A stretch of 64,000 bases of DNA, from contig NC_080423.1 in the NCBI RefSeq assembly GCF_029873635.1, positions 109,695,087 to 109,759,086 on the forward strand, written 5' to 3'. Below are positions 11,100 through 64,000 of the stretch, piece after piece. The DNA is from Malania oleifera (lineage: Eukaryota; Streptophyta; Magnoliopsida; Santalales; Ximeniaceae). How positions within the stretch are numbered: the first letter of the stretch is position 1; the number at the start of each line of letters is the position of its first letter. The notes under the pieces are model-generated. The model saw nothing but the letters and a program-made list of their open reading frames with translations. It was not told where the DNA came from and ran no database searches. The position numbers and the translations under genes are program-made.

Positions 11100-11101
11100 T
11101 T

Positions 11102-11113
11102 TGGTATCAGAGC
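11102..11113 (+). other. Primer-binding site (tRNA-iMet) of the LARD element
   Basis: TGGTATCAGAGC lies 2 bp after the LTR end and is complementary to the 3' end of plant initiator tRNA-Met. It fixes the plus-strand orientation of the element. Confidence 0.85.
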
Positions 11114-12200
11114 AATAAGTTATAGGTTCTGCAGACTTTAAAAAATAATTTTACGAAAGCATATGATATAGGTTCTGCATACTCTAATATATAAATTTTA
11201 CCAGAACTTAGGTATAAAACATGATTTGGGTAGGATTGGGTAGTTTAGAATATTTATTTTAGTTTGTTATATTAATATACGTTAATAATAGATTTATGAT
11301 TTTAAAATAACATTTTATCATTGTTTAAGAATGGATCCTAAAGATAGTAACATTTGAGAAAATGAGATTAACGTGAAAGCTCCCAATGACAAGTAATAAT
11401 CGTAAATTCTCTAAGAAAAATGGTAGTATTATTGAAGACACGTTAATTAATTTAAATATGTTATTTATGTTTGTAAAAACACATACCCATATTGATGATT
11501 CATAATTAATTGTCAAATGCATTAATAATTTAAAATTTATATATATATATAAATAATAATATCTGAGATTTAATTATTTTCACTAAATATATAAGAAATA
11601 ACCTATTAGACCCTACTAAGTTTAGAAGTGCTACATATACAAATAAATATGAACAAACGTCTATTATGAAATCTGAATTTATCCAAAATTTTTTTGCATG
11701 TATAAGTTAGATATGAATATGTATTTTTACATTACATATTGAGTTATCAACAAAACATTCAAGCTTAATTTAGGAATATATATTTTGACAAAATCTTTAA
11801 TTTTAATTTTGTATTAGTTTATAAGGAATTAAATATAATTTAAATATTACTTATTATATTTAAATTCAAAAAAAAAAATTATATATATATGTATAATCCC
11901 TTAGCATGTGCAAGTTAAATATCTATATCTATTTTCCATTACATATTCAATTTCCATCAAGTATCCAAGTTTGATTTAGGAGTACAAATTTTGACAAAAT
12001 ATTTAATTTTTTTTTATAAATTTATAAAAGTTATTACAACTTAAATTTTTCTATATTTAAAAAAAAAAATAAAGAAAGCAATATAAAAATTAACTAATTT
12101 CCTTCAAATAACTAACCAATGTCAAATCATCAATTGGTCAAACATGTCCAACATATATTTGATCTAATAATAATAATAATAATAATGGAATATATTAATC
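11114..12200 (+). other. LARD internal leader, non-coding AT-rich DNA
   Basis: Over 1 kb of AT-rich sequence with no protein signature. An ATGGATCC context at 11331 resembles the position of a gag start in gypsy elements but opens only a very short frame. Two loosely similar stretches (about 11640-11880 and 11890-12060), each with the TTTAGGA...TTTTGACAAAAT motif, suggest an old internal duplication. Confidence 0.5.
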
Positions 12201-12211
12201 TTGTAGTTAAA

Positions 12212-12392
12212 AAGAAAAAGAAAAAAAATGCTTCATGGATGGAAATCATCGGTTATAGCTCACTTACGTCCGAAGCAAGGTCAGGGCATGAGACCACTTG
12301 GGCATAGTGGGGACTCGAACCCGTGATCACATGGATGCACGGCCGGTTCCTTACCACTAGGCTACCCACCCAAGTGGTGATCTAAGGATGAA
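12212..12392 (-). mobile_element. tRNA-derived SINE (Au-like) inside the LARD
   Basis: Read on the minus strand, the head has Pol III boxes: A box TAGCCTAGTGG (12354-12364) and B box GGGTTCGAGTCCC (about 12311-12323). The body ends in CGATGATTTCC and a T-rich tail (12212-12230), as in plant Au SINEs. Candidate target duplications contain TAGTTAAA at 12204-12211 and 12401-12408. A working tRNA gene is unlikely because the sequence outside the boxes does not fold as a cloverleaf. Confidence 0.75.
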
Positions 12393-12474
12393 ATTAATTA
12401 TAGTTAAAGTATTAATAAAGATGTAGAAACATAAAAAGAACCTAGAGTCCGCAAATTTTGCAATACGTGTGCGT

Positions 12475-12691
12475 GCTCGATATCCGTGACATGCGTAGCT
12501 CTCTCTCGATTCTCGTGACTCACGTCATTCTCCCTCGATTTGTGCAAAACGCGTTGCTCAATATTCGTGACACGCGTCGCTCTTTCTTGATTCTCGCGAC
12601 ACACGTCGTTCTCTCTCGATTTGTGCAAAACGCGTTGATTGATATCTATGACACGCGTTGCCCTCTCTCGGTTCTCGCGACACACATTATT
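12475..12691 (+). repeat. 81-bp tandem repeat, left part
   Basis: Units start at about 12475, 12556 and 12637, giving an 81-bp period. Key words are CGATATCCGTGACACGCG, CTCTCTCGATTCTCGCGAC and CTCGATTTGTGCAAAACGCG. The repeat is CpG-rich in AT-rich surroundings. The third unit is interrupted at 12691 by a solo LTR and resumes at 15164. Confidence 0.85.
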
Positions 12692-15163
12692 TGTAACACC
12701 CCGACCCCGAGGGGCCTGAGATATTAACTTTTGACCATTGATTTACAGCGGAAGCAAATAAACTCAATTATTATTATACCAGAGCACTAATTATTCATAT
12801 TACAATCATTTATTTCGAAATAAGAAAAATTACACAAACATAAATATCTGAAACCATACTAATATTTCTAATCAATCTTTATTTTTCTAATCCCCACCCG
12901 TATGCTTGCTAAGCCTGATTTCCAACATGTCCTTCAGAGTTATCTGAAATAAAATATGATTGGGGCGAGACGACGTTCAGTAAGTAAATAAGATTATTAT
13001 TAGTGTGTGGCGTAAATGAGCTTTTAAAGAATTTCGTAAAATAATATTTAATACTATAACTTCAAGACTGCTTTTAGAATAAATATAAATTTAAAAATTT
13101 CTATATAAAACTTTTTTATAATCATATACTATAACTGTCAAATTAAACTTTTAACTTTAAAACTATAAAAATATTTAATGATAAACATACATGTACTTTT
13201 CCTTATACGTTTTCCTTAGATCGTCATTTAAGCATCAAAATGATCCTTTTCACGTAAACTTACACTTTTTCTTCAAATCATCAGTAACTTTGTACACGTA
13301 ATTAAATATGTATAAACATATATTATAAAAACTACCCTTAGGCCTGTTTGCCGTAAGTCATGTTTACCCCCATGACTGGATTGTGCGGTTCAAAAACTAG
13401 ACTTAGCTGGCTGGCTGACCAAACTAAATCAACGTACATAAACTTTAAGTGAGATTTTCCCTATTAAGTCCTGGTCCATAACTAGGTGTGCACTCAGGAG
13501 AAATCCACTAACATAAATAACCACTCTGTAAACAGTGTGGGTACACTTTGATCCATATAAACTTTAAGCTGCGGTACCGAGCATCTGTAACTTTGAATTT
13601 GCTTTGCCATAAGGGGTTTTAAAATTATCTTATTATAATTTATGTAATTTAAAATAATATCGTGAAAATCTCACCTTTACTCATATTTTCAAAAAAAAAA
13701 ATGTAACGTGGAAATAAACTCATGCCACACAATTTTTGTGTTAAAAATATATATGATTTTATTTTTGAATAGAAAGAAATGCTGAAAATTTACCTAAGGG
13801 GATTAGAACATTTTTTAACCCAAAAATAGATGTAAGTATATTAAAGATAGAACTTGATATAATTAAATATGTGTAAAAATAAACTCATGGAAATTTTGTG
13901 GAACTAATTAACATAATTGAAATTTACTTATAAAGTAAACTCGGGTATGAATTTTAAATAAAAAAAACTAACATAATCAAAATTTACTTACCTTCTTCCT
14001 TACGAACACTGTAACTATCTCTATAAAATTAAATCGGAATGAGTGGGTGATTGAGAACTTATTCAAAAATTATCTCTCCACCACAAATTCTTTCACTCAC
14101 TAATCCTTCTCTTCCTTGAAAAATTGTTGTGAAAAATGAAGGTTGAGAGCTCCCTATTTATAGAAAAATTTTGAAGAAGAAATGAAATTTATAAAAGTGT
14201 GGGGAGATGAGTGAAATTATAATTTTTAAAAATTAAAGAATGGGTAAGGGATGGGTAAGGTATGGGTTGAGTATGGAATGGGGATGGAGGCCATGTGGGA
14301 GTGCTTGCCACCATTCCCATTAAATAAATTTTTAATTAATCACTTACCTAATTAATTAATCAATTAGTTAATTAATTATTTTATTATTTTTCTTAATCAT
14401 TATTATCATTATTATTATCATTGTTATTAATTTTGAACCATTTTTAGTATTTATTTATTTTATTATTTATTTTTAAATAAGAATTAAATTTGAATTTTGA
14501 AAACTCATGTGGGCCCCACATGCTCTTGTGGGCCCCACACAACTTCGAGATCCGAATGGATCCTACGTAATTCGAATAATTCTTATATGATTTTATGCAT
14601 CCTACATAACTTTGAGACTCGTATAAACCTCCATACGGCTTCGGGACTAATGTGAGCCCCACACAGTCTTGTGGGTCCCGTATAGGATACCTATATTATT
14701 ATTATTTTATCATATATTTCTACAAATTATATCAGTCAAAACATTATTTTATGTACTTATTTACGTATATAAACAGTGTCTTGTGGCTCCGGGACTCATG
14801 TGGACTCCACATAGTCTTGTGGGCTCCACATATGATACCTATATTATTATCATCTTATTATGTATTTTTACAAATTATGTCTGTCAAAACATCATTTTAT
14901 GTATATATACTTATTTACGTGTACAAACAGTGTCTATCCTGTTTATCCTATGAAATTCCATTTTGACTAGGCCAACCTCTAGGGAGCGACTGAGCCGCAA
15001 TGGTCTCTAAGCACTCGCTAAGACAAGGTCTTTCTTAGGCATCAAATATGGAATCAAGAATCCTATAGAAAAACACTTCTGTATTGATATTAACTTAATG
15101 ACCATTTTTATTATTTTATTATTATTGTACTTTAATTATGTATATTTTTTTTTGGTCATCACA
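12692..15163 (-). mobile_element. Inverted solo LTR of the LARD family
   Basis: A 2.5-kb LTR of the same family as 8767-11099, in the opposite orientation. Plus-strand ends are TGTAACACCCCGACC and TTTGGTCATCACA. Flanks TTATT (12687-12691) and TCGTT (15164-15168) fit a 5-bp target duplication with two CpG-type transitions on the left. The insertion splits the 81-bp repeat, whose intact units predict CACACGTCGTT at the site. No internal sequence is attached. Confidence 0.85.
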
Positions 15164-15260
15164 TCGTTCTCCCTCGATTTGTGCAAAACGCGTTGCTCGA
15201 TATCCGTGACACGCGTCGCTCTCCCTCGATTCTCGCAGTACATGTCACTATCTCTCGATT
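15164..15260 (+). repeat. 81-bp tandem repeat, right part
   Basis: The repeat resumes after the solo LTR: CTCGATTTGTGCAAAACGCG, then CGATATCCGTGACACGCG, then CTCCCTCGATTCTCG. It fades just before the TATA box at 15284. Together with 12475-12691 it would form an upstream array of about four units next to the homeobox fragment before the solo LTR landed. Confidence 0.8.
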
Positions 15261-15283
15261 TCCACAACATTCGGCCATTCCCT

Positions 15284-15290
15284 TATAAAA
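15284..15290 (+). promoter_or_regulatory. TATA box upstream of the homeobox fragment
   Basis: TATAAAA in the context CCCTTATAAAAAGGG, 120 bp before the ATG at 15410. The intervening leader contains CAATCACATTTCAG. It may be the captured gene's own core promoter. No transcript evidence is available. Confidence 0.5.
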
Positions 15291-15409
15291 AGGGTCTGCC
15301 CTTCTCGAACTCTAAGCATCACAGCTTTCTATCATCTTGAACAATCACATTTCAGTTTGCAGTGATTAGCTCTTCCCAACTTGTCTCTTAGTTGTCTCAT
15401 TACTCGAAA

Positions 15410-15967
15410 ATGTTGCCAAATCACCCAACTCCCCAAGTTGCTGAGAGCAGCATTAGATCGTCGATCCAAAGATGGAAACCCAGTAAGGCACAAGTGGAGA
15501 TTTTAGAGGCGGCCTTCCACAGCAGTCAAGGGGAACTCCCTTCTGTGGAGCGTACTATCTTGCTTGCAGCACAACTCTGACGGTATGGTCCAATTGAGCT
15601 GAGAAATATATGTTTTTGGTTTGAGAACCGTAGGCGTAGGCGGGGATCATTTGGAGAAGCCAGTATCTCAACTACTGCCCCATCAATTCTCCATCTTACC
15701 TCCTCCGCCACTACCGCCCCGAGTAGTGCCCCTGCCATTCTTCCAACCGTCTTCCCTATCGAGAATATTCCGACTATGAAACTTACAACTAAAATCACAC
15801 CAATGAGTCATATCCCTTACAATGGCAATATCGCAGTCACCACACTAAGGGTTTCGGATAATGCTGGCCTACTTCACCATTGCAAGGAAATCCGATGCAC
15901 ATTGAGACTCATATACAGGCCACCAATAACTCGGGAAAAGGGCAGCTCTTCCTCCTTCACCGAATAA
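15410..15967 (+). pseudogene. WUSCHEL-related homeobox (WOX)-like fragment
   Basis: The frame opens at ATG 15410 (MLPNHPTPQVAESS) and reads to TAA at 15965-15967, with one in-frame TGA at 15578-15580, codon 57, inside the homeodomain. The homeodomain begins near residue 21. Before the stop are RWKPSKAQVEILEAAFHSS, PSVERTILLAAQL; after it are RYGPIELRNICFWFENRRRR. This follows the WOX pattern: RW-P---Q---LE in helix 1, the long loop, AxL--YG-I, and N--FWF-N in helix 3; the ILEAAF and AQL-RYG spellings look closest to the WOX8/9/11/12 group. A Ser/Thr/Ala/Pro-rich tail of about 100 residues follows. No WUS box was recognised. It lies in the same orientation as the enclosing LTR element, preceded by a TATA box and the 81-bp repeat, and no intron is visible. 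The most likely reading is a host gene captured by the element and now decaying; the stop fits a CGA-to-TGA change. It could instead be a resident gene whose locus was invaded. Confidence 0.72.
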
Positions 15968-16380
15968 ACGGGTGTTCTCTCCCTTTTTTCGACCCAATCC
16001 GGCAACATTATAAGAGGTCAACTCTGCCAAGAAAGAACCTAGGCGGTTAGCAGTGACACCGCTAGTACTGCAATAGATGTTGACGTTGATCTAAGGTTCT
16101 AAAGGTCAAATCTCGTATATTTTTAATTTATAGGACATGTATAATATATATACATATATATAATTATCCTTTTCCACATCTTCTGAATTTCTTTTCTATT
16201 TCAACCTCTATTAGACCGACGATTCACACTTCAATTCCCAAAATAAAATACTTCGCCAAATTGACCCTCAGTCTATTCTAAGATTTAGTCAAATCATTAA
16301 TCAATGTACTCTTTTAAATAGTGCAACCAATTATACAGTACTCATTTTAAATTAGCAAATTTTGATGACGAAATTTTTGT
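15968..16380 (+). other. LARD internal 3' part, non-coding
   Basis: No gene seen. It includes an ATATACATATATATA stretch (about 16148-16163) and, just before the PPT, TTTTGATGACGAAATTTTTG (about 16361-16380), a wording common at the 3' end of gypsy internal regions. Confidence 0.5.
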
Positions 16381-17789
16381 AAGGAGGGGAGATTATGATG
16401 ACCCAAAAATATATATATATATATGATTAAAGCACAATAATAATAAAATAATAAAAATGGTCATTAAGTTAATATCAATACAGAAGTGTTTTTCTGTAAG
16501 ATCCTTGATTCCATGTTTGATGCCTAAGAAAGACTTTGTCTTAGTGAGTGCTCAGAAACCATTGCGGTTCAGTCGCTCCCTAGAGGTCGGCTGTACACGT
16601 AAGTAAGTACATAAAATAATGTTTTGACTAACATAATTTGCATAAATATATGATAAAATAATAATAATATAGGTATCCTATGCAGGGCCCACAAAACTGT
16701 GTGGGGCCCACATGAGTCCCGAAGCCGTGTGGAGGTTTACACGAGTCTCGAAACTATGTAGGGCTCATAAAATCGTAGGAGGATTATTGGAGTTACGTAG
16801 GATCCATTTGGGTCTCGAAGTTGTGTAGGGCCCACAAGATCAAGTGGAGCCCACAAGACCATGTGGGGCCCACATGAGTTTTCAAAATTTAAATTTAATT
16901 CTTGTTCAAAAATAAATAATAAAATAAATAAATACTAAAAATAGTTTAAAAGTAATAACAATGATAATAATGATTAAGAAAAATAATAAAATAATAAATA
17001 ATTAATTAACTAATTAATTAATTAATTAGGTAAGTAGTTAATTAAAAATTTATTTAATGAGAATGGTGGCAAACACTCCCACATGGCCTCCATCCCCATC
17101 CCATACTTAACCCATACCTTGCCCATCCCTTGCCTATTCTTTAATTTAAAAAAAATTATAATTTCACCTATCTCCCCACACTTTTATAAATTCCATTTCT
17201 TCCCCAAAATTTTCCTATAAATAGGAAGCTCTCAACCTTCATTTTTCACAACAATTTTCTAAGGAAGAGAAGGATTAGTGAGTGAAAGAAATTGTGGTGG
17301 AGAGATAATTTTTTTCAACAGTTATAATATATGATTATAAAATTTTACTGTTATAGTTGATGACAAAAGTTTTATGTAGAAATTTTTAAATTTATATTTA
17401 TTCTAAAGACAATTTTGAAGTTATAATATTAAATATTGTTTTACGAAATTTTTAAAAAGCTTATTTTGACTACACACTAATAATAATCTTATTTACTTAC
17501 TGAGCGTCGTCTCACTCCAATCATATTTTTATTTCAGATAACTCTGAAGAGTATGTTGGAAATTAAGCTTAGCAAGCATACGGGTGGGGATAGAAAAATA
17601 AAGATTTATTTAGAAATATTAGTATGATGTCAGATATTTATGCTTGCGAAATTTTTTTTCTTTTGAAATAAATGATTGTAATATGGATAATTAGTACTCT
17701 GATTTAATAATAATTAAGTTTATTTGCTTCCGCTGTAAATCAATAGTAAAATATTAATATCCCAGGCCCTTCAGGGTTGGGGTGTTACA
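16381..17789 (+). repeat. Polypurine tract and right LTR of the LARD element
   Basis: AAGGAGGGGAGA (16381-16392) is a typical plus-strand primer. The LTR then starts at 16394 (TATGATGACCC) and ends at 17789 (GGGGTGTTACA). It is about 1.4 kb against 2.3 kb for the left LTR, so it is incomplete. GGCAC (17790-17794) repeats the left flank. Confidence 0.85.
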
Positions 17790-17966
17790 GGCACTGTCAA
17801 GTATCGCATATATAGTCCGACTGCCCCACCTGGTCCATTATTTCACCAGTGGCCCCATTAACTCCTACAAGCCGACTATCTCGATACCCACACTGATTCA
17901 CATGTGTGGTTACACTGTACCTTAACTAGCAACGGAATCGCGCCTCTGGCTAATTAAAGCCTTTGA

Positions 17967-18033
17967 TAAACTGGAGTATCTTTCAACTCTTTTGAAGTAT
18001 CTTTCAACTCCTTTGGAGTATCTTTCAACTCCT
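17967..18033 (+). repeat. 24-bp minisatellite inside the gypsy solo LTR
   Basis: Three near-identical units of GGAGTATCTTTCAACTCCTT. The sister LTR has only a diverged pair here (about 44565-44612), so the array expanded in this copy. Confidence 0.75.
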
Positions 18034-18908
18034 TTAGTAACAAGTTGTGGCCCCAATTAATCATATATATAATTTACAGTAAAACATAACAACCTGTTCA
18101 GTTCCAGTATTTTTACAACCGTAATCATGCAATCTTTCATGCATTTTTCTTTTCTGTCAGTCAGTGGTGTTAATCGGCACAAACTCTCTTGGTTTAACCC
18201 CTTTTTACATAATAAGCTCGGTGGTTAACCGGTACCTGTTTTCCACATTTCCAGATAACATAATGGAATTCTAGTTTTCATAGTCCATTCACAAATATAA
18301 CAGTTCCATATGTTCTAGTTCATATCACATGTCACGTTCATTTCGTCAAAAGCCGCTTTAATCAGTGTATAATTCGAAAAATACCATTTGGACCGCAAAC
18401 ATGGGTATCAAGCAATTCCTACCTTAGTTTTAAAGCAGTTAAAGTAGTTTTAGAAAATTTGGAGTTCATATACCAAAACCCCTATTTTTGCCAAAAAATC
18501 GTAAAATTATAAGAAACAATATTTATACCAGGTAAAATTTTGTAGATAAATATTCAAAATGTGCAGTAAGACATAATCTAACTTTCTAGCCGTTCAGTTT
18601 TCTAAAAATACTAACGTAAACAAATCCCCTTACCTTAATCCCAAAAATAGAAATACGAACAGATTGATCCAAAACAACGACCCAGAATCCCCGAAACCTA
18701 AAAACCGAAGAACATTACTTCACTATAATCACAACTACTACATATATACCGAATTAGAAATGGAATCAGATGCTTACCTTGATTTTAGGGAAAAACCCAA
18801 AAATCCTCGAATCAAAAATCTAATCCTCTACAACTGCATAGATTATCCTTCTAATCCCTGTAGTGATGTCGGATTATTGATTTTGGCAACGGACGACATG
18901 AAATCCTA

Positions 18909-18935
18909 GAGAGAGAGAGGGTTGGTTCGAGTTCT

Positions 18936-18966
<31 letters not shown>

Positions 18967-18975
18967 AAAAAAAAA
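18909..18975 (+). repeat. GA microsatellite
   Basis: Two GA runs, the longer at about 18940-18966, followed by an A-run. They lie just downstream (on the minus strand) of the LTR TATA box, so they would be in the transcribed leader. Matching GA runs sit at 45448-45500 and 47513-47550 in sister LTRs. Confidence 0.8.
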
Positions 18976-19004
18976 TTGGAATAACTTAGCAAGAAAATGA
19001 TATT

Positions 19005-19229
19005 CTATTTATAACTAAGTTGACCCGGCCAACCTCGTCGACGAGTCGGAGTTCTCATCAACGAGCCGAAGAAGGTCAATCATGGTTAAGAAGGTGACCT
19101 CGTTGACGAGTTTGAGATTTCAGAATCTTTGAAAATCCCTTGGCATCTTCTCATCAACGAGCCCCGGCATCTCATCGCCGAGCCACAGAAGAAACCTTAT
19201 CGACGAGAAATGGAGCCTCGTCAATGAGC
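19005..19229 (-). promoter_or_regulatory. LTR promoter: TATA box plus TCGTCGACGA array
   Basis: On the minus strand, about seven copies of a palindrome-like word (CTCGTCGACGAG at 19034 and variants CTCATCAACGAG, CTCGTTGACGAG, CTCATCGCCGAG) occupy 19034-19229. The array stops 15 bp before TTATAAATAG (19005-19019). Most variants are CG-to-TG/CA changes, as expected for methylated CpG decay. Confidence 0.75.
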
Positions 19230-19298
19230 TCTATTGTTTTATCCTTTTTAATTTCTTTTCTCTTTATTTATTTTCTAGATTTGGGTCCCTATAGAGAT

Positions 19299-23471: not shown

Positions 23472-25335
23472 TGTAAGTACCCGAACTGAGATATAAGGGT
23501 TTAAATAATTAAGAGAGGGGTAAAAAGGTAATTAAACAGGCTTCGTCAACGAAGTTAGAGTTCGTCGATGAAGTGGCTTTGTCGGCGAAGCCAGAGTTCG
23601 TCGACAAAGGCCTCATATTTTTCGTCAACGAGGAGCAGGTGTTCGTCGACGAGGAGAAATCGAGAGGTTTTATGAAATGCGACGAAATTCAAGGTTCGTC
23701 GACGAGGAGAATTCGAGGGGTTTCGAAAAATCGAAAATATTAGGCTCGTCAACGAGGTCATGGTCTCATCGATGAGAAGACTATAGGGTCTCATCGACGA
23801 GGACGCAATTCGTCAACGAAAGCTGCTGAGTCAAAGGTACTATAAATATTAGTTTCATTACTTCTCAGTTAAGAAATCATATATCCTCTCTTTATAAACT
23901 TTTCCTACTCTCCATCTCTCTAGATTTCTTCACTGATCGTTGCGAGAATCATTAATCCGAAGTTACCACGAGGATCGTGGGAGGATTCTCTACAAATTCT
24001 ATGGATCGGATTTTCGGTTAAGCCATTTTTGGGTTTTGGCGTAAAATCGAGGTAAGGCTCAGTTTTTAATTTTGATCTGGAAGTTTTGTAGAGAATAGTC
24101 TTATGAGTATCTTATATACTGGGATTTGTAGGTTTTGGAACTCGGATCGCTATTTAGGAGTCTTAGAGTTCAAGAATTGCTATTTGGGGGAAAGGTAACG
24201 GGAATTGTGTTTATATCGGTTATTTTTGAAATCGGACTCGGTAAAATTGTGGTTCACGATCCTGTGTGTGTGTTTTGGTTACTCATTTGGGGGGATCTAA
24301 TGGAAAAAATTATGGGTTTTTCATGATTACAGTTTTAGGAAAAGGAGGCGACGACTGCATCCCTAGTTTTGTTGAAAACCAAATGTATATGTTGATTTAT
24401 ACTGTGTTATAGGGATGACCATGCCTTGACTTGTTTTAAACTGTATATGTTTGGAAAACCATAATTTTAGATTACCAAATGGGCATGGTTTGTTTGGTTA
24501 TATGAGCATGTATGTGTATGTGATTGGTTGAAATGCGAGTAGGAACGTGGTTCGAATTTGTTCTAGGTACTGAGAGTGTCCGACTTTATATCCGAGAGCA
24601 TGAGCCTATCTTGACTGATCACCGAAGGGTGTGGATCCACCAGTTAGCGCCGGTACGATGCCATGGGAGTCGGGGACTAGCCATGTGCCGATGGCGTCGT
24701 GTTCACGAGTTGGCTACGAGCCAATGCCATATGTTGCCGGTCGGCATCGGGTCGAAGGGTGTGACGACACCGGGTAGATCATGGGCGTGCGTATGTATGT
24801 GTGTGCGTGTATGTATTGTGTAAAATTAGTACTGGAACTGCATTTAACTGCGTGTATGTTGCATCATGATAACACTCAAATGCCACACATCGATATAACC
24901 TGTATTCTTCCTTACTGGGAGGTGTCTCACCCCTACTGTACGTACATATTTTTCAGGTCCTTCGAGTAACTGGAACTAGCGTCCTTGTGTTGGGAGCGTA
25001 GTGGCCGGTGTACAGCGGGTAGCATTTGGGTAAGTGTTAGAACTTGTGTTTTGTGGGTTGCCATTGTGGGATATGTTGGGCACGTAGATGTACGTTGTAT
25101 GATAAAGCTTTGCCATGCTCTTGTATAAACTCTGGTATGATACCATGTATGTACATAAAATGACCTTTTTCCGCTGCGTATGTGATTGTGTTTGGATGTG
25201 TATAGGGTGCCTGGGAACCCCACGGGATCGAACCCTCATCCTTTGTACTGTATCTTTGGATGTTTTATTGGATATAGAGACAAGTTAGGTTATATCTTCA
25301 CCCCTAGGTCCCATTTTTGGGTTCGGGGCGTGACA
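23472..25335 (+). mobile_element. Gypsy solo LTR inside the copia 3' LTR
   Basis: A 1,864-bp LTR, TGTAAGTACCCGAAC...GGTTCGGGGCGTGACA, flanked by perfect TACTC duplications (23467-23471 and 25336-25340). No internal region is present, so it is a solo LTR. The same family, inverted, is at 45907-47878. It carries a TCGTCGACGA array, a TATA box, GCCGGT/GCCATG-type degenerate repeats (24650-24760) and the hairpin block TACTGGGAGGTGTCTCACCCC (about 24913-24933). Confidence 0.9.
23541..23848 (+). promoter_or_regulatory. LTR promoter: TCGTCGACGA array plus TATA box
   Basis: About eleven copies between 23541 and 23820, mostly TTCGTCGACGAG, TTCGTCAACGAG, CTCGTCAACGAG and CTCATCGACGAG forms. TATAAATA follows at 23841-23848, 20 bp after the last copy. 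This is the richest of the six arrays in the window. Confidence 0.8.
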
Positions 25336-43747: not shown

Positions 43748-45829
43748 TGTAACGTCCCGACCCTTTATACGGACCTAGATGTCACTCACTCATACAAAAT
43801 ACCTGTACCTGTTTAATATACATAGACAACCTGCCCTAAACAGGGACATACAGGTGTAACTCGTACATAACAGGAATGCAAATGTTGCGGAAAAATATAA
43901 ACATTCATCGGGATTTCTAATAGACATATACTAGAGTTTACTATTGTATCCTCAAATAGATTTATCTAGACTTAGAACGTAACCTATTATTACAACCCCA
44001 AAAAAAGGTACTCCAACCAAGTTCAATATACACATAGTCCACTTACGTATGCTATGACCTAAAAATTCTCTAAGTCCCTCAAGCAACTAGGACCGACGTC
44101 CAGATGAATCTGAAAACAAAAGTTGTATAATGGGGTGAGACACTTCTCAGTAAGGCGGAAGGTATTACAACAGTGTGTAACTGCATATGCTCATTTTAAT
44201 CAAATTCACTACATACAACAATTTTTCAATCAAGCGGTGCAACAGGTATAGTAATATAAATACAATATATTTCTTCCTTAAAAAGTATTTAAATCATGTA
44301 TATGATTATTAAAACAACGACCAGCTTGGTATGACATAATTACGCCTATTTACCCCGTGGCACGGGTTGTGCACTGATGAATCTAACATGCCCTGTTTGT
44401 GTGGACATTGCCGAGCATCTATTCTATAGTCCGACTGCCTCCCCTGGTCCATTATTTTACTAGTGATTACAAACTCTTGCAAGCCAACTATCTCATGTAC
44501 CCACATTGATTCACATGTGTGATTGCACTGTACTTTACTAGCTACGGAATCGAGCCTTTTATTTCCGGAGTGTCTTTCAACCCCTGTAAACTGAAGTATA
44601 CTTCAACTCATTTGGTAGCAAGTTGTGGTTCCATTTTTCATATATACGATTTATAACGAAAACATATTAACCTATGCATTTCTAGTATTTTCAGAACTCA
44701 TATAATCATTTCGGGCATAAACCGGCACACATCCTCTCAATTTACTCTTTCCACGTTCATAGCTCGGTATGTAATCGACACCTATTTTCCACATATTCAG
44801 TATAGCAAAATGGAACTCTAGTTCCCAAAGTTTATATAAGTATTGTAAAAGATTCTCATATTTCATTTCTATGCACATGTCACGCTAATTTGGTCAAAAG
44901 CCCGCTATATAGTACATAATACAGTAAACGTCATTTAAATGAGAAATAATGGATTCAAGCATCTCACACAATAATATTAGTACAAATAAGGATGTTTTGT
45001 AAAGTTTGGAAATCATATGCCAAAATCTGTATTTTTACCAGAAACTGTAAAATCGCAAAATCGACATTTTTACCCAGTGAAATTTAGTAAATAAGAAGTC
45101 ATATCAGACATATAAACATAAATTATCTTTTGAGCGGTTTAGTTTTTTTCAAAAATATTGTTGTAAACAAATTCCCCTTACCTTAAACCCGAAAGTAGAA
45201 ACTCGTACGAAACGGCTCAAAGCAACGACCTGGAATCCTTAAAACCTAAAAACCACAGAATATTACTTCGCTATAATCTCGACTATTATACAGCTATCTA
45301 ATCGAAATTGGAATCAGATCCTTACCTCGATTTTTAGGAAAACCCGAAAATCCATAAAACGACGATCTTATCTACTAGAGTAGTAAAGCTTCCTTTCTTG
45401 ATCCACGCAGGAACCTCCATTTTTAGAAACGGACATCGAACAGAGAAGGATCATAGAGAGAGAGAGAGAATCCGTAGGTTAGAGAGAGAGAGAGAGAGAG
45501 CTTTTGGGAGAAACTTAGCCCTTAAGCAACCAAAATGGATATTTATAGGGCCCTTGACCGAGTCAAACTCGTCAACGAGGTGGCGTCTTCGTTGACGAGC
45601 CAGCCACATAGCTCGTCGACGAAGCCATTCCTTCGTCGATGAACCTCATTCGGATATTTCTTTGACCCGCTTGGTATTTTCTCGTCGACAACGCTCTGAA
45701 TTTCATTGACAAGGCAGTGAAGGAACTTCGTTGACGAACTTGCTGCCCTCATCGACGAACCCTACTATATAACTCCCCTTTATTCTGTTTCTTACATATT
45801 TTCCTTATTTACGAGTTCGAATCTCTACA
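43748..45829 (-). mobile_element. Gypsy solo LTR (same family as 8032-19293)
   Basis: Plus-strand ends TGTAACGTCCCGACC and CGAATCTCTACA, flanked by GTTTG (43743-43747) and GTATG (45830-45834). It aligns throughout with the LTR at 8032-8761/17795-19293: ATATACATAGACAACC-GCC, GACAAAC/GACATAC-AGGTGTA, CACTTCTCAGTAAGG and CCCGTGGCACGGGTT. It sits 12 bp inside the left LTR of the host element. It carries a promoter array at 45568-45760. Confidence 0.87.
45538..45760 (-). promoter_or_regulatory. LTR promoter: TCGTCGACGA array plus TATA box
   Basis: About eight copies between 45568 and 45760 (CTCGTCGACGAA, CTTCGTCGATGAA, TTCGTTGACGAG and others). On the minus strand TATAAATAT (about 45538-45547) lies 21 bp downstream of the array. 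A GA-rich leader follows (45448-45500). Confidence 0.78.
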
Positions 45830-45906: not shown

Positions 45907-47878
45907 TGTCACGCCCCGAACCCGCAGATGGGTCCCAGGTGTGAATAGAGTAACCTAACCCGTCTATGTATCAATTAAAACATACATGATACAATACAAT
46001 AAGGGGGTTCGACCCTGGTGGGTATATGGATGCCCTGTACGCATACACATATACATCGATACTCATCAAATACACAACGGAAAATGTTTCATCTATACCA
46101 TACTAGAGTCTATACAACACTAGGATATACAAACCCATGCAACACTAAGATATGCAATCCCATAATTACAATACATACTCCGGGTGTCTACAAAAACCAT
46201 CACGACAACTTGGTTACAAAACTCGTACATAATCAGGCACTAACAGCAACTCACGACACCCCCACTTCCAAATGCTAGAATGCTAATTATGGCTACCTGA
46301 AGGACCTGAAAACATTTGTACGTACATTCGGGGTGAGACACCTCTTAGTAAGGAAGAAAGCAGGTTATATCAGTGTGTGGCATACCAGTGTTATTTTACT
46401 TAAAATATAACACCATGCAATACGATACAGTTCAAAAACATTTACATATAGTTCCAGTATTTTCACAAATCCATTCTAGTATATACGATACCCAACCATA
46501 TAGTTAGTGTCGTCACACTAATACACAACTACTCTATGAAACCCGAAACTTCACAGCGATTACGTTGCCAATACGATGTAGCTCACACTAATACACAATT
46601 ACTTTATGAAACCCGAAGTTTCACAGCGATTACATTGCCAATAGAGTGTAGCTCACACCCCTCGGTGACCAACCAGGACATGCTGGTGATATTTCACACC
46701 CTCGGATATAAAGCCAAACACTTTCACCCATAGTTTTTACACCGGTACATAGCGCAGCGTACGATAATTAGTTGCCACATAGCTGTTTCGGCATACGGTA
46801 ATTAGCCGCCACTAATTGATTTCACAAAACCTGTAATCATTTTGAAACTCATGTTTTGTATACTCATCAGCGTACGATAATTAGCCACCACATAGCTATT
46901 TTACAAAATACCTTGAGCATTTGCATACAACCATACATACCACACTTATTTGGTTTATGGAAAATCATATCGTTTTCCAATTCAAGTATACAGTTTTATA
47001 CAAATATGGATAATAGTCATCTCAATAATACAGTTTAAACAAAACAAACAGTTTTCCAAACAAAGCAGAGATGATACTCGAAATCCCAAAAATTTCTTAA
47101 AAACTGTAACCCGAAATTCCCGTATTTTACCTGATAGATTTCCCCAAATTAGTTACCAAAACATACATACGATCGTAGCCTACAAGCTTACCGATCCCGA
47201 TTTCAAAAAGTAACTGATATAAATTGAATCCCCTAACCTTAACCCGAATTCCAACTACGAACTCTACGGTCCCCGAAACTACGAATCGAGACTCCAAAAC
47301 TTACAAACTATAGTACAATACATGCTTACAATTCATACTACTACACAAATTTCGAATCAGAAAGGAAAATCAAGTCTTACCTCAATTTTGGCTCGAAACC
47401 TGAAATTGCTCTAAACGAGATTTCAATCCGCTAGAAACGCAGAGAATCCTTCCCTAATCCTCGCACTAATGTTGGATTTACGAATCAGGTGACGAACGGC
47501 GAAAAAATCTAAACAGAGAGAGATCTACAAGTTCTAGAGAGAGAGGGAGAGGATATTTGAGATTACTTAGCTCCAAAGCAACCCATTTGGATATTTATAG
47601 CCCTTTGACTCGGGTGGATTCGTCGACGAGATGACGTCTTCGTCGATGAGTTCACCGGGTTTCTCATCGACGAGATGGAGGTTTCGTTGACGAGCCAGAT
47701 ATTTCCAATTTTTTCGAACCTCTCGACATTCCCTCATAGATGAGCCTCTGAATTTCATCGACGAGGAGCCATTAGCCTTCGTCGACAAATGATAACCTCG
47801 TCAACAAAGTCTACACAATTACCTTTTTACCCCTCTTTTAATCAATTTAATCCATTTATCACGAATCGGGTTCTTACA
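45907..47878 (-). mobile_element. Gypsy solo LTR (same family as 23472-25335)
   Basis: Plus-strand ends TGTCACGCCCCGAACC and ATCGGGTTCTTACA, flanked by perfect CTATC duplications (45902-45906 and 47879-47883). It is inserted within the left LTR of the chromovirus-like element. Local repeats GCGTACGATAATTAGC-CC (46759, 46870) and ACTAATACACAA-TACT-TATGAAACCCGAA (about 46517 and 46588) lie in its middle. It carries the hairpin block at about 46330-46352. Confidence 0.88.
47591..47810 (-). promoter_or_regulatory. LTR promoter: TCGTCGACGA array plus TATA box
   Basis: About eight copies (TTCGTCGACGAG at 47619, CTCATCGACGAG, TTCGTTGACGAG, TTCATCGACGAG, TTCGTCGACAAA and others) between 47619 and 47810. 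On the minus strand CTATAAATAT (47591-47600) lies 19 bp after the array. Confidence 0.78.
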
Positions 47879-48300: not shown

Positions 48301-48355
48301 TGCAAACACCCTATTTTTGCCCTAACCAGATAGAACAAGAGGTTTATTCTTATTT

Positions 48356-54309: not shown

Positions 54310-54817
54310 CGTCACGGTCCGATTATTTTCACACCCTTGTGTAGGGCCGTGTGGCGCTAGCTAAAACACTCTTGCTTAACTAGTCAGCCTATCGTTTACC
54401 GACATTCATCCACAGAGTACTTTCATTAGAATTCATTCAAATAACAGTGGAAACAGTAATCAATTCATGAAAGCCGTAGCAAGCAAGCAGTAAACATTGA
54501 AGCAAACGTAATTCATTAACAATACCTCCATTGACATTGTGTGCTTATCGAATGAGACAAGTAGGCTAAACACGTTGACAAAAGTTAGTGAGTTTTACAA
54601 TAACTGATGAACACTCACCCTCCCCTAAAGAGCTTTCTAGGTCATTCCCACTTTAGCACTAAGAAACATCAAAGTGACCGAGGAGTCATACTGCCTTATT
54701 TGGCATACAAAGATACTACTAGCAGAAAATAACTGTAACAACCTGAATTTTTAAATGAAATTTAAATAATAAAGAAAGAAAAAATTGAAAAAGGGAAAAG
54801 AAGGGAAGCTTCCAAGC

Positions 54818-55017
54818 TTCGTTGACGAACACAAGGTTTCGTCGACGAACATAAGGTTTCGTCGACGAACATAGGGTTTCGTCGACGAAAAAATACCGAG
54901 AGGGGTTCTGAGGCAACCTGAATTTCGTCGACGAATACAGGATCTCGTCGACGAAATTTGTGAAGAACTCGTCAACGAAGATCGGGCTCGTCGACGAATT
55001 CCGCCGCCTATAAATAT
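54818..55017 (+). promoter_or_regulatory. LTR promoter: TCGTCGACGA array plus TATA box
   Basis: Eight copies at about 54818, 54838, 54858, 54878, 54924, 54944, 54968 and 54988. The first four have an almost exact 20-bp spacing, and five are exact TTCGTCGACGAA or TTCGTCGACGA forms. TATAAATAT follows at 55009-55017, 10 bp after the last copy. This is the best-preserved array in the window. Confidence 0.85.
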
Positions 55018-55748
55018 GAAAAATCTGATTTTTATTTCATTTTTCACGCTCTCTCTCTTTCTCCTTTCTCTCACTCTCTCTGTTTGATTTTGGGTTAATT
55101 CTACGCTGGATTGAAGATCTGAGGCTACCACGATGCTCCTGGCGAAGTTCCCTGCAAGTTTGCCGGAGCGGATCGTCGGGAAAACAGAGTTGAAAATCAT
55201 CCCTAAGTTGAGGTAAGACTTTTTAAGCCAAATTAGACTTCATGGTAGTTATAGAAATTGACGTACGCATGAAAATACTGATGATTAATACTGGGAGTTT
55301 TGAGTTTCAGGATATTGAGTAGGAAATCCTACGGGGGGTCAGGCTAAGATTTTAGGGGGTTTTCTCAATAGTTAGGTAAGGGAGTAAACTAAAGTAGTTA
55401 TTTTCCATGCAAATTATTATTGATTATGAGTAAATTTATTTTCAGAAAAGCATATGATATACCTGTATATTATAGATGAAATGTACGTTTGGGAAATACT
55501 GTTATTATGATGAAACGTATATGTATATATGAGATGATAGAAAAACACGATTTTAGAATATGAAATATGACGTTTAACAAAGCATGTGTGGCATGAATAT
55601 TATTTTATGTGAAATGAGATATGATATGTATGCTTTTACGTTTAAAACACATTTTCAGGTATTTTGGAAAGATGAGTTATGCTATATTAAGTTGACGAAT
55701 ATATGATAAAAGAGTTAGTTTTTTTGAATATAAATACCTGAAACGATT

Positions 55749-55985
55749 CGGCACGAGGCCGTATTGATGTTAGCGGCGCGTGGCCATATTTTATTATGCA
55801 ATCGGCGCGAGGCTGTATTTATTATGCCATCGGCACGAGGCAGTATTATTATGTTATCGGCACAAGACCGTATTTATGTTATTGGCGCGAGGCCATGTAT
55901 ATATATTTACTATGATTTTGGCACGAGACCATACATATGATTTCGGCGCGAGGTCGTATCTATGTTTTCGGCACGAGGCCGTGTT
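55749..55985 (+). repeat. LTR minisatellite CGGCACGAGGCCGTAT
   Basis: About nine units of 23-32 bp: CGGCACGAGGCCGTAT or CGGCGCGAGGC-GTAT followed by a T/A-rich spacer such as TTATGTTAT. GGCACGAGGCC is itself partly self-complementary. A related CGTACGCCGACAAATC minisatellite occurs at 63180-63370. Confidence 0.8.
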
Positions 55986-56963
55986 GATGTTACGTATGTT
56001 CATGTATTATATGTTATTGCAACCAGGATGTAGTTTAGTTCATACCAGGAGCTTGGTACCGTAGCTATGGGTTGATTTTGGCATGAGACCTTATTAGTGC
56101 TACTGTTCCACGAGGGGATGGGAGATGGATAATCGATGAGGCTTTTAGTAGAGTTTAGAAGTCCACCTGGCAGTCCGGACCAGGGTGCGGCGGGCCCATC
56201 GTACTTACAGACATATTTGATTTGGCAGTGGTCGGCCAGCTATTGTCAGGTCCCGCCTTCGGGCTGCACAACCCGTCATGGGGGGTAATACATGACATTA
56301 GTTAGCTATTCATCCTAGGTTGATTTTCAGTATTACGAGTTACAACAAATGTTTATGTATGTTATGATTTATTAACGAATATGAAAATACATGATTATCT
56401 AGCATGATATTATAATTACTTTCAGAGTTATGAAATGTACTGTATATGTATAAGCACTTTAAATATTCATGTTGCCACACAGCTGTATTTAGTTTACTTT
56501 CCCTTACTGAGAAGTGTCTCACCCCCATCATTATTAAATTTTTCAGAAGCCCTTGAGAGACCGACGGGTCAGAGCTGCCATTGAGTTAGAAAGATTACCC
56601 CATGAGGAGGGTAAGATTTTTGTACTAGGGTTAGAGTTATTTTGTGTGACCCTAGAGATATTTTGATGCATATAGATATGTACAAGAGTACAGTATTATA
56701 ATGTTATAAAAGCTCTGGTATTATGTTTTATGGATGGATGTATGGATTTTTATGTTTACTGCTGCGTAGGTTTTCCGCTGTGTATGACAGGAGTCCCCGT
56801 TACCCACGGGTTCAGGTTGACTATTTATTTGTTATGTTGTATTTTATTGAGGGACGTTACAATAACCCTACACTAGTATTTACAAGATGGAAACCCATCC
56901 CAAGCACACGAGGCAAGCGGTCATAGGCAAGCATAATGCCCTGAACAAGCTTAACTCGTGACA

Positions 56964-60142: not shown

Positions 60143-61911
60143 TGTAATGATTCGGAAAATTTTAATGATAAAATAATTAAGGAAAATAATAGATGAAAAA
60201 GATATATAAGGAATAAAGGAAAAGAGGGGAAATAGAAGTAAGGAAAAAGAAATTTGAAAAGGGATGATAAGCAGGTGCTTGTCAACGAGCAGGATTTTTT
60301 CGATGATGAGTGATGTTATGTGCCTCGTCGCCGAGTAAGTATGTCCCGTCGACGAGGATTAATCGAGAGGTTTTGGCTATTTTGAAACTAGTCGACAATC
60401 TCACGGCCTCGTCGACGAGTATTCTTCGGTGGTTCGTCGACGAGCCCTATCTTCTCGTCGATGAGTGCACGTGGCAACAACTTCTATAAATTGAATTAGG
60501 CTTGCTTCTACGCAAAAGAAATCAAATTTCCTTCGATTTTCTCTCTTTGGGTCGTCTTCTCTCACTTCTCTCTAGCTTTCCGGACCGGATTCAGCCCAAA
60601 TCGATGATCAGAGGTCGCTATGGTGTTCTAGGGAAGATTCTCTACACATCTAGCGGATCGGTTTCTTAAATTGGGCATCTTGGGAAATAATCCTAAGTTG
60701 AGGTAAGGGTTTGGATTCTCAGTTTTGGGTTTTTAAAATGTTATTTAAGGTTTATAAGTTGAGAAAATGTAAAAATAGTAGTTTATAGAGTTTTTGAACC
60801 AGAGACTGGGTGAGCATCACAGGCATCGGTTTAGGATACCTGTTGGTGTAGTTCGAGGATTCAGGTAAGGGGGGAATTATATATATTAAATCAAGTTTTT
60901 ATGAATTAAATAAAAATGGACTATGTTATATATGTATATATGTTTTCATGTGGGTATAAAATGTCAACCATGTAAATTATATTTTCTGAGCTTAGGACTG
61001 CTTATTTAGCTACGTATATGTGAAAATAAAGTGATGAAAGTGAAAAGTATTTCAGGATAATTATGTAAGAAATGAAGGTATATTTTTAGTAAATAAACGT
61101 TAAATGATGGTTGACTTATTTTATAGGTAATGTATGAATTTTTCTGCTAAAATTGTGTGGGATAAGCAAATGGTAATGTAATGTAAATGTATGTTATACG
61201 TATGAGATACAGGCTATGTAAGTAATGCATTGATAATGAAATGTTATACGGACCATGTTGCTCGTGTTTGATAATGCAACCATATATGTAATGACAACTA
61301 AAAGGAGCTGTAGACTAATGGATGATAGTTAAAAAGAGCTGTGTTAGCATATTCTAGCGCATATCTATGTGGATTAATTGATGTACAACTAAAAGGAGTT
61401 GTAGTACGAATGAAAAAGGAGCTGTAGTACGAATGAATAAAATGAAAATGAATGAAATGGAAATGTGAATGAAATGGATGTGAAATATGAAATGTGAACG
61501 ATGTAAAATGTTAAAGGTTACGTAAAGTGAAATGCTATTAAATGCCAAAGTTATGAATATGAACAGATATGGATAGTTGAATAACAACAAACAAAATAAT
61601 GTATTATAGTATTATTAAGTATGTATGTTAGTAGAACATGTTACTTTAGGGCAGGACAAACTCTTCGCCTTAGTGCTTGCTGAGAAAGGCGAGTGCACTA
61701 ATAGTATCAGATGTAGCAGCAGGGTGCATAACGCACTAGAGCAGAGGGAAACTACTTGTATGGGCGGGTAGATTTCCTTATTCTTGGGGACCTTCACTAG
61801 TAAACCTTTGTATGAACTGTGTGAGTACGAGATTAATTTGTCACTTAAGGGCTTACTGAGTAAGGTGAGTGCTTTGGTACGCTTCAATTGTGACCTTTGA
61901 GTTGCCTAATA
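60143..61911 (+). mobile_element. Gypsy LTR, cut by the next LTR
   Basis: Starts TGTAATGATTCGGAAAAT directly after the microsatellite. It has a TCGTCGACGA array, TATA box, a TAGGGAAGATTCTCTACACA leader word and an AACTAAAAGGAG-TGTAG minisatellite (about 61288-61430). It is interrupted at 61912 by an LTR in the other orientation. Its own 3' end is not in the window. Confidence 0.75.
60279..60490 (+). promoter_or_regulatory. LTR promoter: TCGTCGACGA array plus TATA box
   Basis: About eight copies between 60279 and 60465 (CTTGTCAACGAG, CTCGTCGCCGAG, CCCGTCGACGAG, CTCGTCGACGAG, TTCGTCGACGAG, CTCGTCGATGAG and others). TATAAA is at 60485-60490, 20 bp after the last copy. Confidence 0.78.
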
Positions 61912-64000
61912 TGTAACGCCCCGAACCCTTAAACCCGAGTCCGGCGTGTTATACCTGATAAAATCCCTGATAATTCATAATCAACATATACGCAGCAGAA
62001 AACATGATTATAATCTTCCAAAAAATATAATACCAGAGTTTACTAATTCCTATCTATAATCGATAATAATTATCCATCACCTGCATTTCCATAAATCTAC
62101 ATAACTCCCAAAACATTTCAGTATTTTCACAATCATTCCTTAGTCAACAGCCTTAATGTCACGACTTGCTCATTTTTTCATAAATTTTTTTTTTTATAAT
62201 AATATCATCATAAAATCAATACCGCACATCACACATTTCAGCTCAGTAGGTCACCATCCACCTGGACCCATGGGTACCAGGGATAAAACAGAATATACAG
62301 CAGAAGCCTACGCAGCAGAAAACACACAGTAATATGTATTTAATCATATCATACATCACAATATTCCAGAGTTACTACATCCACTGTATTTCCAGATATA
62401 CATCCCAAAAATAAAACCTAGGGACATTTCCCACAAAATCTAACTGTCCCTACAAAACTCACCCTTTAAAAGGGTAGCTAACAGCTCTATATCAGCGGGG
62501 CTTTTCCCGCTCTCCTATTTGGGGCTCTTGAAAAGTTAATAAGATTTAGGGGTGAGACATCTCTCAGTAAGGGAAATAAACTAATACTAGTGTGTGACAA
62601 CATAAGTATCCCGTGTTCTACATATACCATACATATCATATTCAGTACTGTTTATCAAATCTGGGAAAACATATGCATATCAAAACATGGCAGAACATAC
62701 TGCATTTTCATAAACATTTCTCATCTCATATCATAATAATAATAACATAAAAACAATCCTAGTACGTTAGCTGGCTGTTGTCATGTATTACCCCCACATG
62801 ACTGGGTTGTGTGGCTCAAAGGCGGGACCTAACAATGGTTGACCGACCACTGTCAAGTCAAATAGTAGTCTGTAGGTCCGATGGGTCTACCCAGACTGGT
62901 CCGTACACCAAGGGCGATAACAACACACTTTTTGAAAATAACCACATCGACCATCCAATCTCACACCACTCCGTACAACGGCGTTAACACAAATATCATG
63001 ATCACAAAGACCATGGACACATAGCAACGGTATCGTGTAAGTGCTAGCCTAGACCAAGCCAACCAGATTCTGATATCATATACATATACTAAAATCGTGA
63101 TACATGGATATCTCATATCAATAATTATCAAATCAATCATATCATTTTTCACATATACATATTTCATGAAAATTATTGGCCCGTATGCCGGAATTACACA
63201 TTTTATCATAGCTCGACTCGTACGCCGATAAATCACATAGCACAGCCCGTACGTTGGCAAATCTCATCCACATAGCACGGCTTGTATACCAGTAAACATA
63301 TCCATATAGCACGGCCCGTACGCCGACAAATCATATATATATATATATATATATAAATATCTCGCCCCGTACGTCGGTTTTTCATCATAGAAATCCATAT
63401 CGTCCCCATTCCCAAAAAACAGTATTTCACAACATTTTTATACTCATGCCACACTAAATAAATTTTCCACGTATACAACATATCATCATTTAAACAGTAT
63501 TTTCCAAATATAAATCATATATATAAATATATTTATTTTTCCTGAAACCAGATGCTACATATATATACATGCATTTTCTTAAAACAAAACTAGCTTAATT
63601 TATCCCCTTACTTGATTCTTGCAAAGTCCCTAAGAAAATCTTCCCTGCACCCGCAGGGTTCCCAACTCAACAACTCTGGAAATGAAAACTCACAGAATTA
63701 AAGTTCAGTATTTTCGTACGCACAACATTTTCTATAACTACCACTAAGTCAAATTCGGCTTAAAAAGTCTTACCTCAACTTAGGGATGATTCCCAACGTT
63801 CCCAATCAACACCCCTGAAAACGAAAATTTTCAGTATTAAACTTTAATATTTCAATGCGTATAACACTTTTCTTAACTGTTACAACTTCAAATTTGGTTT
63901 AAAAAATCTTACCTTAACTTAGGGATGATTTCCAAATCGCTTTCTCCAACGATCCGCTCCAACAGATTTGCAGAGAATTTAGCCAAGAGTGTCGTGGTAG
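61912..64000 (-). mobile_element. Gypsy LTR running off the right edge
   Basis: Plus-strand start TGTAACGCCCCGAACCC. It carries the hairpin block (about 62549-62571), the TTACCCCCACATGACTGGGT block (62788-62807) and a CGGCCCGTACGCCGACAAATC-type minisatellite (63180-63370), interrupted by an AT run. Near the edge, CAACGATCCGCTCCAACAG and CAGAGAATTTAGCC match the leader of the LTRs at 54734 and 60143. The promoter part lies outside the window. Confidence 0.78.

Follow-up and report, generated by a model that had tools for sequence, protein, structure and literature searches.

In the Ty1/copia retrotransposons Tnt1 and Tto1, short repeated boxes near the TATA box of the U3 region serve as transcriptional activators. 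Palindromic, CpG-rich repeated-motif (RM) boxes upstream of the TATA box have been described in the long terminal repeats (LTRs) of Sireviruses by Bousios et al. 2010 (PMC2829016), and the parts of that paper compared here report them as Sirevirus-specific, give a CGG-CCG core for 12 of the 13 published boxes and mention box I of Tnt1. Maize Sirevirus LTR palindromes have been presented as small-RNA targets (Bousios et al. 2016, as told in the pertinent passages of PMC10760457), and the VANC targets of VANDAL transposons, oriented words that turn over through tandem repeats, are bound by an element-encoded protein (PMC5735166, in the portion compared). Here we analyze a stretch of 64,000 nucleotides from Malania oleifera (contig NC_080423.1, positions 109,695,087 to 109,759,086 of the forward strand; the window) in which six LTRs each carry an array of the palindrome TCGTCGACGA shortly before a TATA box, and we find that many thousands of retrotransposon copies in this genome carry about eight such palindromes at fixed distances before transcription start.

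At up to one mismatch, TCGTCGACGA occurs 39 times in the window, as compared with 0.31 on average over 100 shuffles (at most 2), and 37 of these matches lie inside the six arrays; because the remaining two, at 1643 and 38267, are single, the window holds no further LTR with a close-match array. When two mismatches are allowed, the cells before TATA total 47, and the same six LTR sequences have none after TATA. The arrays, lettered after their LTRs, are as follows.

19035..19227, minus strand: array A, 7 cells within two mismatches; TATA box at about 19007-19013
45569..45758, minus strand: array B, 7 cells within two mismatches (8 within three)
47620..47807, minus strand: array C, 7 cells within two mismatches (8 within three)
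23543..23819, plus strand: array D, 11 cells; TATA box at about 23840
54819..54997, plus strand: array E, 8 cells, 6 of them exact; TATAAAT at 55009
60279..60464, plus strand: array F, 7 cells within two mismatches; TATA box at about 60484

In all six LTRs the last cell stands 10-21 bp before the TATA box in the LTR's own direction. The initial annotation of this DNA, which had reported both this distance and 7-11 palindromes in each of six LTRs, was accurate on both counts; its description of the copies as perfect or one-step variants holds for 37 cells but fails for array A, where only 2 cells are within one mismatch and the other five have two.

The same arrangement recurs throughout the 1.494 Gb of genome scanned. 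Exact TTCGTCGACGAA, with TT..AA ends, was found 37,861 times as compared with 67 for the reversed word, exact CTCGTCGACGAG (CT..AG ends) 29,470 times as compared with 36, and mixed-end CTCGTCGACGAA 54,641 times on both strands (27,487 + 27,154) as compared with 141 in the reversed-word control (76 + 65); summed, exact cores with pyrimidine/purine ends number 121,972. The word lies 5-33 bp upstream of TATAAATA in 17,959 cases (9,606 + 8,353) and downstream in 89 (48 + 41), which makes it about 200 times commoner upstream in a tally where one TATA may count twice, and the reversed word gave 4 upstream and 4 downstream. The notion that the word might be equally common away from TATA boxes, which the initial annotation had named as fatal to its proposal, is thus rejected genome-wide. 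Of 171 word matches in 20 loci of 10 kb, 165 fall in 28 arrays, and the reversed word matched there 3 times.

Spacing was measured in a sample of 56 loci (20 spanning 10 kb, 36 spanning 700 bp), chosen for exact TTCGTCGACGAA in the first 2.5 Mb of the contig labelled C1, together with the window. An array filter was passed by 67 arrays and failed by loci L029 and L035 and by array A; four of the 67 (in L018, L023 twice and L041) could not be oriented by chromovirus hidden Markov models (HMMs) and stand outside the spacing counts, which leaves 63 arrays (51 loci plus the window), of which a leader HMM oriented 57 and a U3-start HMM 6. Their 430 neighbor steps are sharply quantized, with 212 at 19-21 bp, 113 at 24-25 bp and 56 at 44-47 bp; only 1 falls at 22-23 bp, and the other 48 comprise three of 12-17 bp, one each of 26, 41 and 43 bp, and the rest of 48-76 bp. 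The commonest ladder of palindrome starts runs 21-25-20-46-20-24-21 bp, give or take one base (array E reads 20-20-20-46-20-24-19), a layout of four pairs with 20-21 bp, or two helical turns, within a pair and 24-25 or about 46 bp between pairs. The last three steps are short-long-short in 42 of 44 assessable arrays, and step transitions are overwhelmingly short-long (98) or long-short (94), with 5 short-short and 1 long-long. A tally independent of the array filters agrees with this free scan: exact neighbor pairs number 20,629 genome-wide, as compared with 0 for the control, and among 83 distinct listed places of these pairs 58 are at 19-21 bp, 24 at 24-25 bp and 1 at 26 bp, with no further spacing in the 11-40 bp range. 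Ladder slots were filled within two mismatches in 431 of 504 instances; because slot assignment tolerates small steps around the template, we base the spacing claim on the free scan and the exact-pair counts.

The distance to the TATA box is likewise restricted. Of 49 arrays for which a TATA was matched, 35 have it at 8-12 bp, 13 at 19-21 bp, 1 at 29 bp and none at 13-18 bp; the two preferred distances are one helical turn apart. In the first 100 genome matches the word was 9 bp from TATA in 38, 11-12 bp in 11, 19-22 bp in 14, 5 bp in 1 and 27-33 bp in 36, the last class being mostly the next cell up.

Within this frame the cells are conserved and the intervening sequence is not. Across 1,434 pairs of arrays, core identity keeps to 0.82-0.86 however alike the spacers are (0.34 to 0.90, with 0.463 as the baseline for shuffled spacers), and within arrays the cores are 0.84 and the spacers 0.30 identical (34 arrays), such that spacer sequence drifts toward random while spacer length is kept to about 1 bp. 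The dyad usually has a pyrimidine before it and a purine after it, and symmetric outer bases exceed chance (C..G 78 as compared with 57 expected, T..A 196 as compared with 175, n = 435); within-cell symmetry reaches z 2.4 to 5.2 in cells C1, C3, C4, C6 and C7, C8 being the cell next to TATA. Accessory motifs occupy set places as well. A TGACGTG-like box lies in the C7-C8 spacer of 28 of 58 arrays, as compared with 3 of 322 other spacers, GTCAA occurs in 8 of 12 long C8-TATA tails (we presume these to be ACGT or W-box-like), and C4 is followed at 4 bp by the linker motif ATAYHRAGRG in 24 of the 56 chromovirus modules, as compared with 30 of 11,200 shuffled linkers that have the motif at any position.

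The reading that we favor on this geometry, and consider reasonably likely, is that a putative dimeric protein drives LTR transcription from dyad sites arrayed in helical phase close to the promoter. The array would then serve a large Ty3/gypsy chromovirus LTR lineage as its upstream promoter (enhancer) module; a DNA-binding protein that acts as a dimer and is probably encoded by the host would occupy the pairs cooperatively on one helix face and, once bound, would place the transcription machinery at the TATA box. A promoter-proximal array for a dimeric factor had been proposed in the initial annotation, and the approximately 200-fold upstream excess, the quantized spacing and TATA distance and the preserved cores support it. 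Several observations pull the other way. A step of 24-25 bp does not correspond to whole helical turns, and the TATA pattern was unmatched in 14 of 63 arrays, though several of these show near-TATA sequence. The cells were chosen by likeness to the word, which puts a floor under the core identity figures, and the arrays are related by descent, so their counts are not independent. In addition, the outer-base dyad preference is weak genome-wide (60,697 mixed ends would be expected for the 54,641 found), and within-cell symmetry is lacking in C5 (z 0.3), C8 (-0.1) and C2 (-2.3).

Sequence ends and target-site duplications (TSDs) place the boundaries of the window's LTRs such that complete ones measure about 1.9-2.2 kb, and LTRs A to E appear to be solo.

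8032..19293, minus strand: LTR A, solo, TSD GAGAT on both sides; aligns to LTR B at 67%
43748..45829, minus strand: LTR B, probably solo, TSD GTTTG/GTATG
45907..47878, minus strand: LTR C, solo, TSD CTATC
23472..25335, plus strand: LTR D, solo, TSD TACTC; aligns to LTR C at 64%
54734..56861, plus strand: LTR E, solo, TSD ATAAC; carries array E
60144..61911, plus strand: LTR F, 3' end not found
61912..64000, minus strand: LTR G, cut by the window edge, its array region outside the window
2366..4414, minus strand: LTR H, of the same lineage by its leader; U3 lost and hence without an array
23..1277, minus strand: Ty3/gypsy gag-protease and reverse-transcriptase pieces behind LTR H (RVP_2 4.9e-33, RVT_1 6.7e-08)

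LTR E has an empty-site match, its flanks (54389-54733 and 56858-56950) matching 47879-48307, where no LTR is present. LTR A is split by a nested element at 8767-17789 into pieces at 8032-8766 and 17795-19293; this insertion of about 9 kb has the TSD GGCAC and contains inverted copies (8985-11099 and 12692-14781) of 90% identity.

The starts of the six array-bearing LTRs are variants of TGTA..RACCCGAA (LTR A reads TATAGGG), and in alignment the six are collinear through U3, TATA box, CT-rich leader and a conserved GGTAAG. Pairwise identity among them is 43-67%, of which values near 45% are by themselves weakly informative in AT-rich DNA, permissive BLAST having also paired unrelated AT-rich stretches; A and B match more strongly (73% over 606 bp), as do C and D (70% over 690 bp). 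Because boundaries and feature order are shared and these two pairs match, we conclude on sequence grounds that the six have diverged within a single Ty3/gypsy chromovirus LTR lineage, and the array within the window is thus inherited. The initial annotation had counted at least three families by their ends, which does not hold, and had itself allowed that membership in a single family would reduce the array to simple inheritance, as is now found inside the window. In the six LTRs TATA is followed at about 200-234 bp by this conserved GGTAAG (24049, 60700 and 45320 are examples), which resembles a splice donor and suggests a spliced leader. Elsewhere, at 34185-36255 and 38068-38640, the window contains two host-gene-like frames, acyltransferase-like and SAUR-like by eye.

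The main carrier of the array is a Ty3/gypsy chromovirus, which we would tentatively call Tekay/Del-like. Of the 56 sampled loci, 51 belong to the chromovirus lineage by HMM and one (L035) by eye, and four were not recognized. A primer-binding-site-like word lies at 2351-2362, next to LTR H, and reverse transcriptase of the Ty3/gypsy type of the LTR H element was found in 7 of the 20 long sampled loci. A degenerate element (L025) has arrays in both LTRs, which are 88-91% identical where compared (the 3' LTR runs past the locus end); between them lie, in order, gag CCHC, RVP_2, RVT_1, RNase H, an integrase with a weak core (rve 0.0087; H2C2 9.8e-20) and SH3_Tf2-1 (1e-21), followed by a chromodomain-like piece of 27 aa recognized by eye only. 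The long loci gave 39 leader matches, of which 30 are preceded by three or more CpG-tolerant cells; of the 9 that are not, 3 owe this to the end of the sequence. Chromovirus arrays of at least 10 cells occur in L017 (4268-4478) and L025 (8558-8845), their left module grown by a pair unit of about 45 bp. A short element with arrays in both LTRs (L028, 2571-8846; LTRs 95% identical) looks non-autonomous, a gag-like piece being all that was recognized inside it.

The array is also present in Ty1/copia LTRs. Locus L023 is Ty1/copia by Pfam (gag_2 2e-28, RVT_2 1.6e-61); its 3' LTR array has steps of 21-25-22-47-20-25-20, of which the 5' LTR array retains the final six cells. The LTR of L029 is similar, with a degraded array. 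Fusion of an L023-type copia LTR to a cell was found at 17 places genome-wide with up to two mismatches, as compared with 0 for the control; two of the 17 are L023's own LTRs and 13 have two mismatches, and the 241 copies of the downstream copia stretch come from a pattern of different strictness, so no fraction can be formed. A second family, that of L041, is likewise Ty1/copia (LTRs of 1.39 kb, Retrotran_gag_2 2.4e-20), and by sequence bears a Sirevirus hallmark, multiple polypurine tracts, with four of the form AAGGGGGA(G) before the 3' LTR in each of 4 loci. All 12 loci fetched for this family carry the array (of 515 candidates, 40 were scored), and L018 is weakly related to it. In these Sirevirus-like copies (L041/L065 and L066-L077) the array is lengthened by a repeated four-cell half-module (20-24-20, joined by 47-48).

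That the module moved between the Ty3/gypsy and Ty1/copia superfamilies is probable from sequence comparison. By BLAST, the array of L041 resembles three chromovirus arrays over 188-190 bp (L043 at 77%, window E at 74% and L042 at 73%), and the matches lie mostly within the array. Both copia families have the same module with the second motif at a fixed offset: the linker motif lies at the same offset of 4 in 10 of 12 L041-family modules and 2 of 2 L023 modules (the L071 module, which possibly belongs to a neighboring chromovirus array, is among the 12 and outside the linker and spacer homology comparison). Most L041-family modules clearly surpass even the best of the shuffles in spacer identity (0.70-0.72 as compared with 0.59-0.66, for instance). 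One could envision copying between element classes through, for example, template switching between co-packaged RNAs or LTR recombination. The suggestion in the initial annotation that the array is shared or exchanged between families would thus stand for the Ty1/copia LTRs, not for the window's six.

An alternative to such a transfer is convergence, in which Ty1/copia and Ty3/gypsy LTRs evolved the array independently through the same host factor, and several results speak against transfer. Word cores alone make up about 80 of the 188 matching bp; copia and chromovirus modules have no slot-by-slot spacer homology, and whole linkers are no more alike between them than shuffles; L023 spacer identity (0.68, shuffles 0.61-0.68) is barely or not above chance; and the strict linker motif is absent in 31 of 56 chromovirus linkers. 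The lack of slot-by-slot spacer homology and the L023 spacers also favor convergence, as do the palindrome words that Sirevirus families elsewhere have of their own, according to the parts of PMC2829016 compared. The missing spacer and linker homology weakens the transfer claim and does not decide it. However, convergence would have to produce a matching ladder of steps, the linker motif at the same offset and a similarity of 73-77% over about 188 bp that lies mostly within the array, and we consider it unlikely. A fuller version of the transfer reading, in which a portable promoter cassette of fixed geometry (eight dyad sites, the second linker motif and TATA in helical phase) moved between chromoviruses and copia elements and one dimeric protein activates both, we regard as an even proposition.

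A different view of the array itself, raised in the initial annotation as a CpG-rich silencing target, would make it a CpG platform, in which the three symmetric CpGs of each cell matter through their methylation, recognized by methyl-CpG proteins or the silencing machinery, rather than as activator sites. CpG observed/expected is indeed 1.3-2.3 in the six arrays and 0.7-1.0 in the rest of the LTRs, and the 457 cells contain 404 core substitutions, with C>T or G>A changes at CpG accounting for 335, which fits methylated sites in dead copies. However, the non-CpG letters T1, T4, A7 and A10 are nearly invariant (266, 268, 263 and 267 of 270), a CpG cluster needs neither fixed spacing nor phasing with TATA, and an element has nothing to gain from retaining a silencing target, and so we think a CpG platform quite improbable. 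If the array is instead a promoter module, CpG decay of single cells would be the expected effect of methylation on dead copies after insertion, and we read the conserved cores as reflecting purifying selection in source elements combined with methylation decay in dead copies.

Somewhat more doubtful still is that the palindromes act in RNA or single-stranded DNA, with U3 RNA folding by palindrome pairing into a structural signal or small-RNA source. Compared with shuffles, array RNA shows better folding (z averages -4.2 across the 63 arrays and is -5.5 for array E and -3.7 for array B), small RNAs have been mapped to maize Sirevirus palindrome clusters (PMC10760457, in the portion compared), and one of four neighbor pairs, C3-C4, has excess complementarity (z 2.7). 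However, the predicted partners are promiscuous, the other neighbor pairs give z 1.0, -1.1 and 1.2 and the four mirror pairs -0.8 to 0.0, non-partners such as C4-C7 reach 3.9, and the TATA offsets are left unexplained. Examined by complementarity between slots and by folding, the RNA hairpin model keeps only the rank of an alternative, since the array is foldable yet shows neither fixed partners nor consistent covariation; a mirror symmetry of the ladder as a whole was discarded, mirrored cells being without complementarity. RNA folding may be a by-product exploited by hosts.

It is very unlikely that the array is the target of an element-encoded anti-silencing protein, as VANC motifs are in VANDAL transposons. 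The architecture is broadly similar, VANC targets being short motifs arrayed in noncoding regions (PMC5735166, in the portion compared), but VANC motifs are oriented and dynamic whereas the present words are palindromic and locked in spacing, the word is common to three element types, and in one degenerate element (L025) the 7 of 11 frames of at least 80 aa that were searched comprise 5 of gag-pol and 2 without a Pfam match. Passive inheritance of an old array fixed in one lineage, without selection on word or spacing, has in its favor that the six window LTRs and 51 of 56 sampled loci form one lineage, but with core identity steady while spacers diverge to the shuffled baseline and spacing held within about 1 bp, it is the least credible of all.

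With this finding, a feature described as Sirevirus-specific reaches the second large class of LTR retrotransposons in plants, and does so in very many copies; the strict spacing rule offers a direct handle on a putative plant factor that binds two palindromes 20-21 bp apart. If it is true that one factor reads both copia and gypsy arrays, the activity bursts of both would be coupled. Exchange of promoter modules would then offer elements a way of acquiring one another's expression programs; the regulatory module would evolve separately from its carrier, and one dimeric protein would switch on unrelated retrotransposons.

Among known systems, Tnt1 and Tto1 are similar in having short repeated U3 boxes near the TATA box; theirs are few in copy, of other words and not known to form an eight-cell ladder. 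VANDALs are DNA transposons. Their VANC targets come nearest among cases where the binding protein is known and encoded by the element, and they resemble the present arrays in that a transposon family carries a short word many times over in its noncoding regions (PMC5735166, in the portion compared). Maize Sireviruses share palindrome clusters in the LTR cis-region and strong predicted RNA structure, as told in PMC10760457, but the small-RNA link is theirs, the present array having been compared by sequence only. Our literature searches found no report of the present word or of Ty3/gypsy palindrome arrays in open-licence titles and abstract starts, and gave nothing of use on promoter exchange between copia and gypsy elements; the initial annotation, which knew of no description, agrees with these searches as to the word and the Ty3/gypsy arrays but overlooked the published Sirevirus arrays. 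By analogy the array looks to work like the Sirevirus RM boxes. As far as the compared parts of PMC2829016 go, the two share a CpG-rich cluster shortly upstream of the LTR TATA box and a high copy number (here 7-11 cells per LTR and more than 8 per two-LTR element), and the Vitis box CGGTCGACCG has GTCGAC in common with our word. The window elements nevertheless fail two defining features, core and carrier: the word lacks the CGG-CCG signature, and the main carrier is Ty3/gypsy, a Sirevirus-type carrier occurring only in the L041 family. There is in addition a fixed spacing ladder here, and no spacing rule in the compared parts of that paper. Palindromic arrays before the TATA box were thus already known from Sireviruses; what surprises here is the fixed ladder and its presence across Ty3/gypsy and Ty1/copia.
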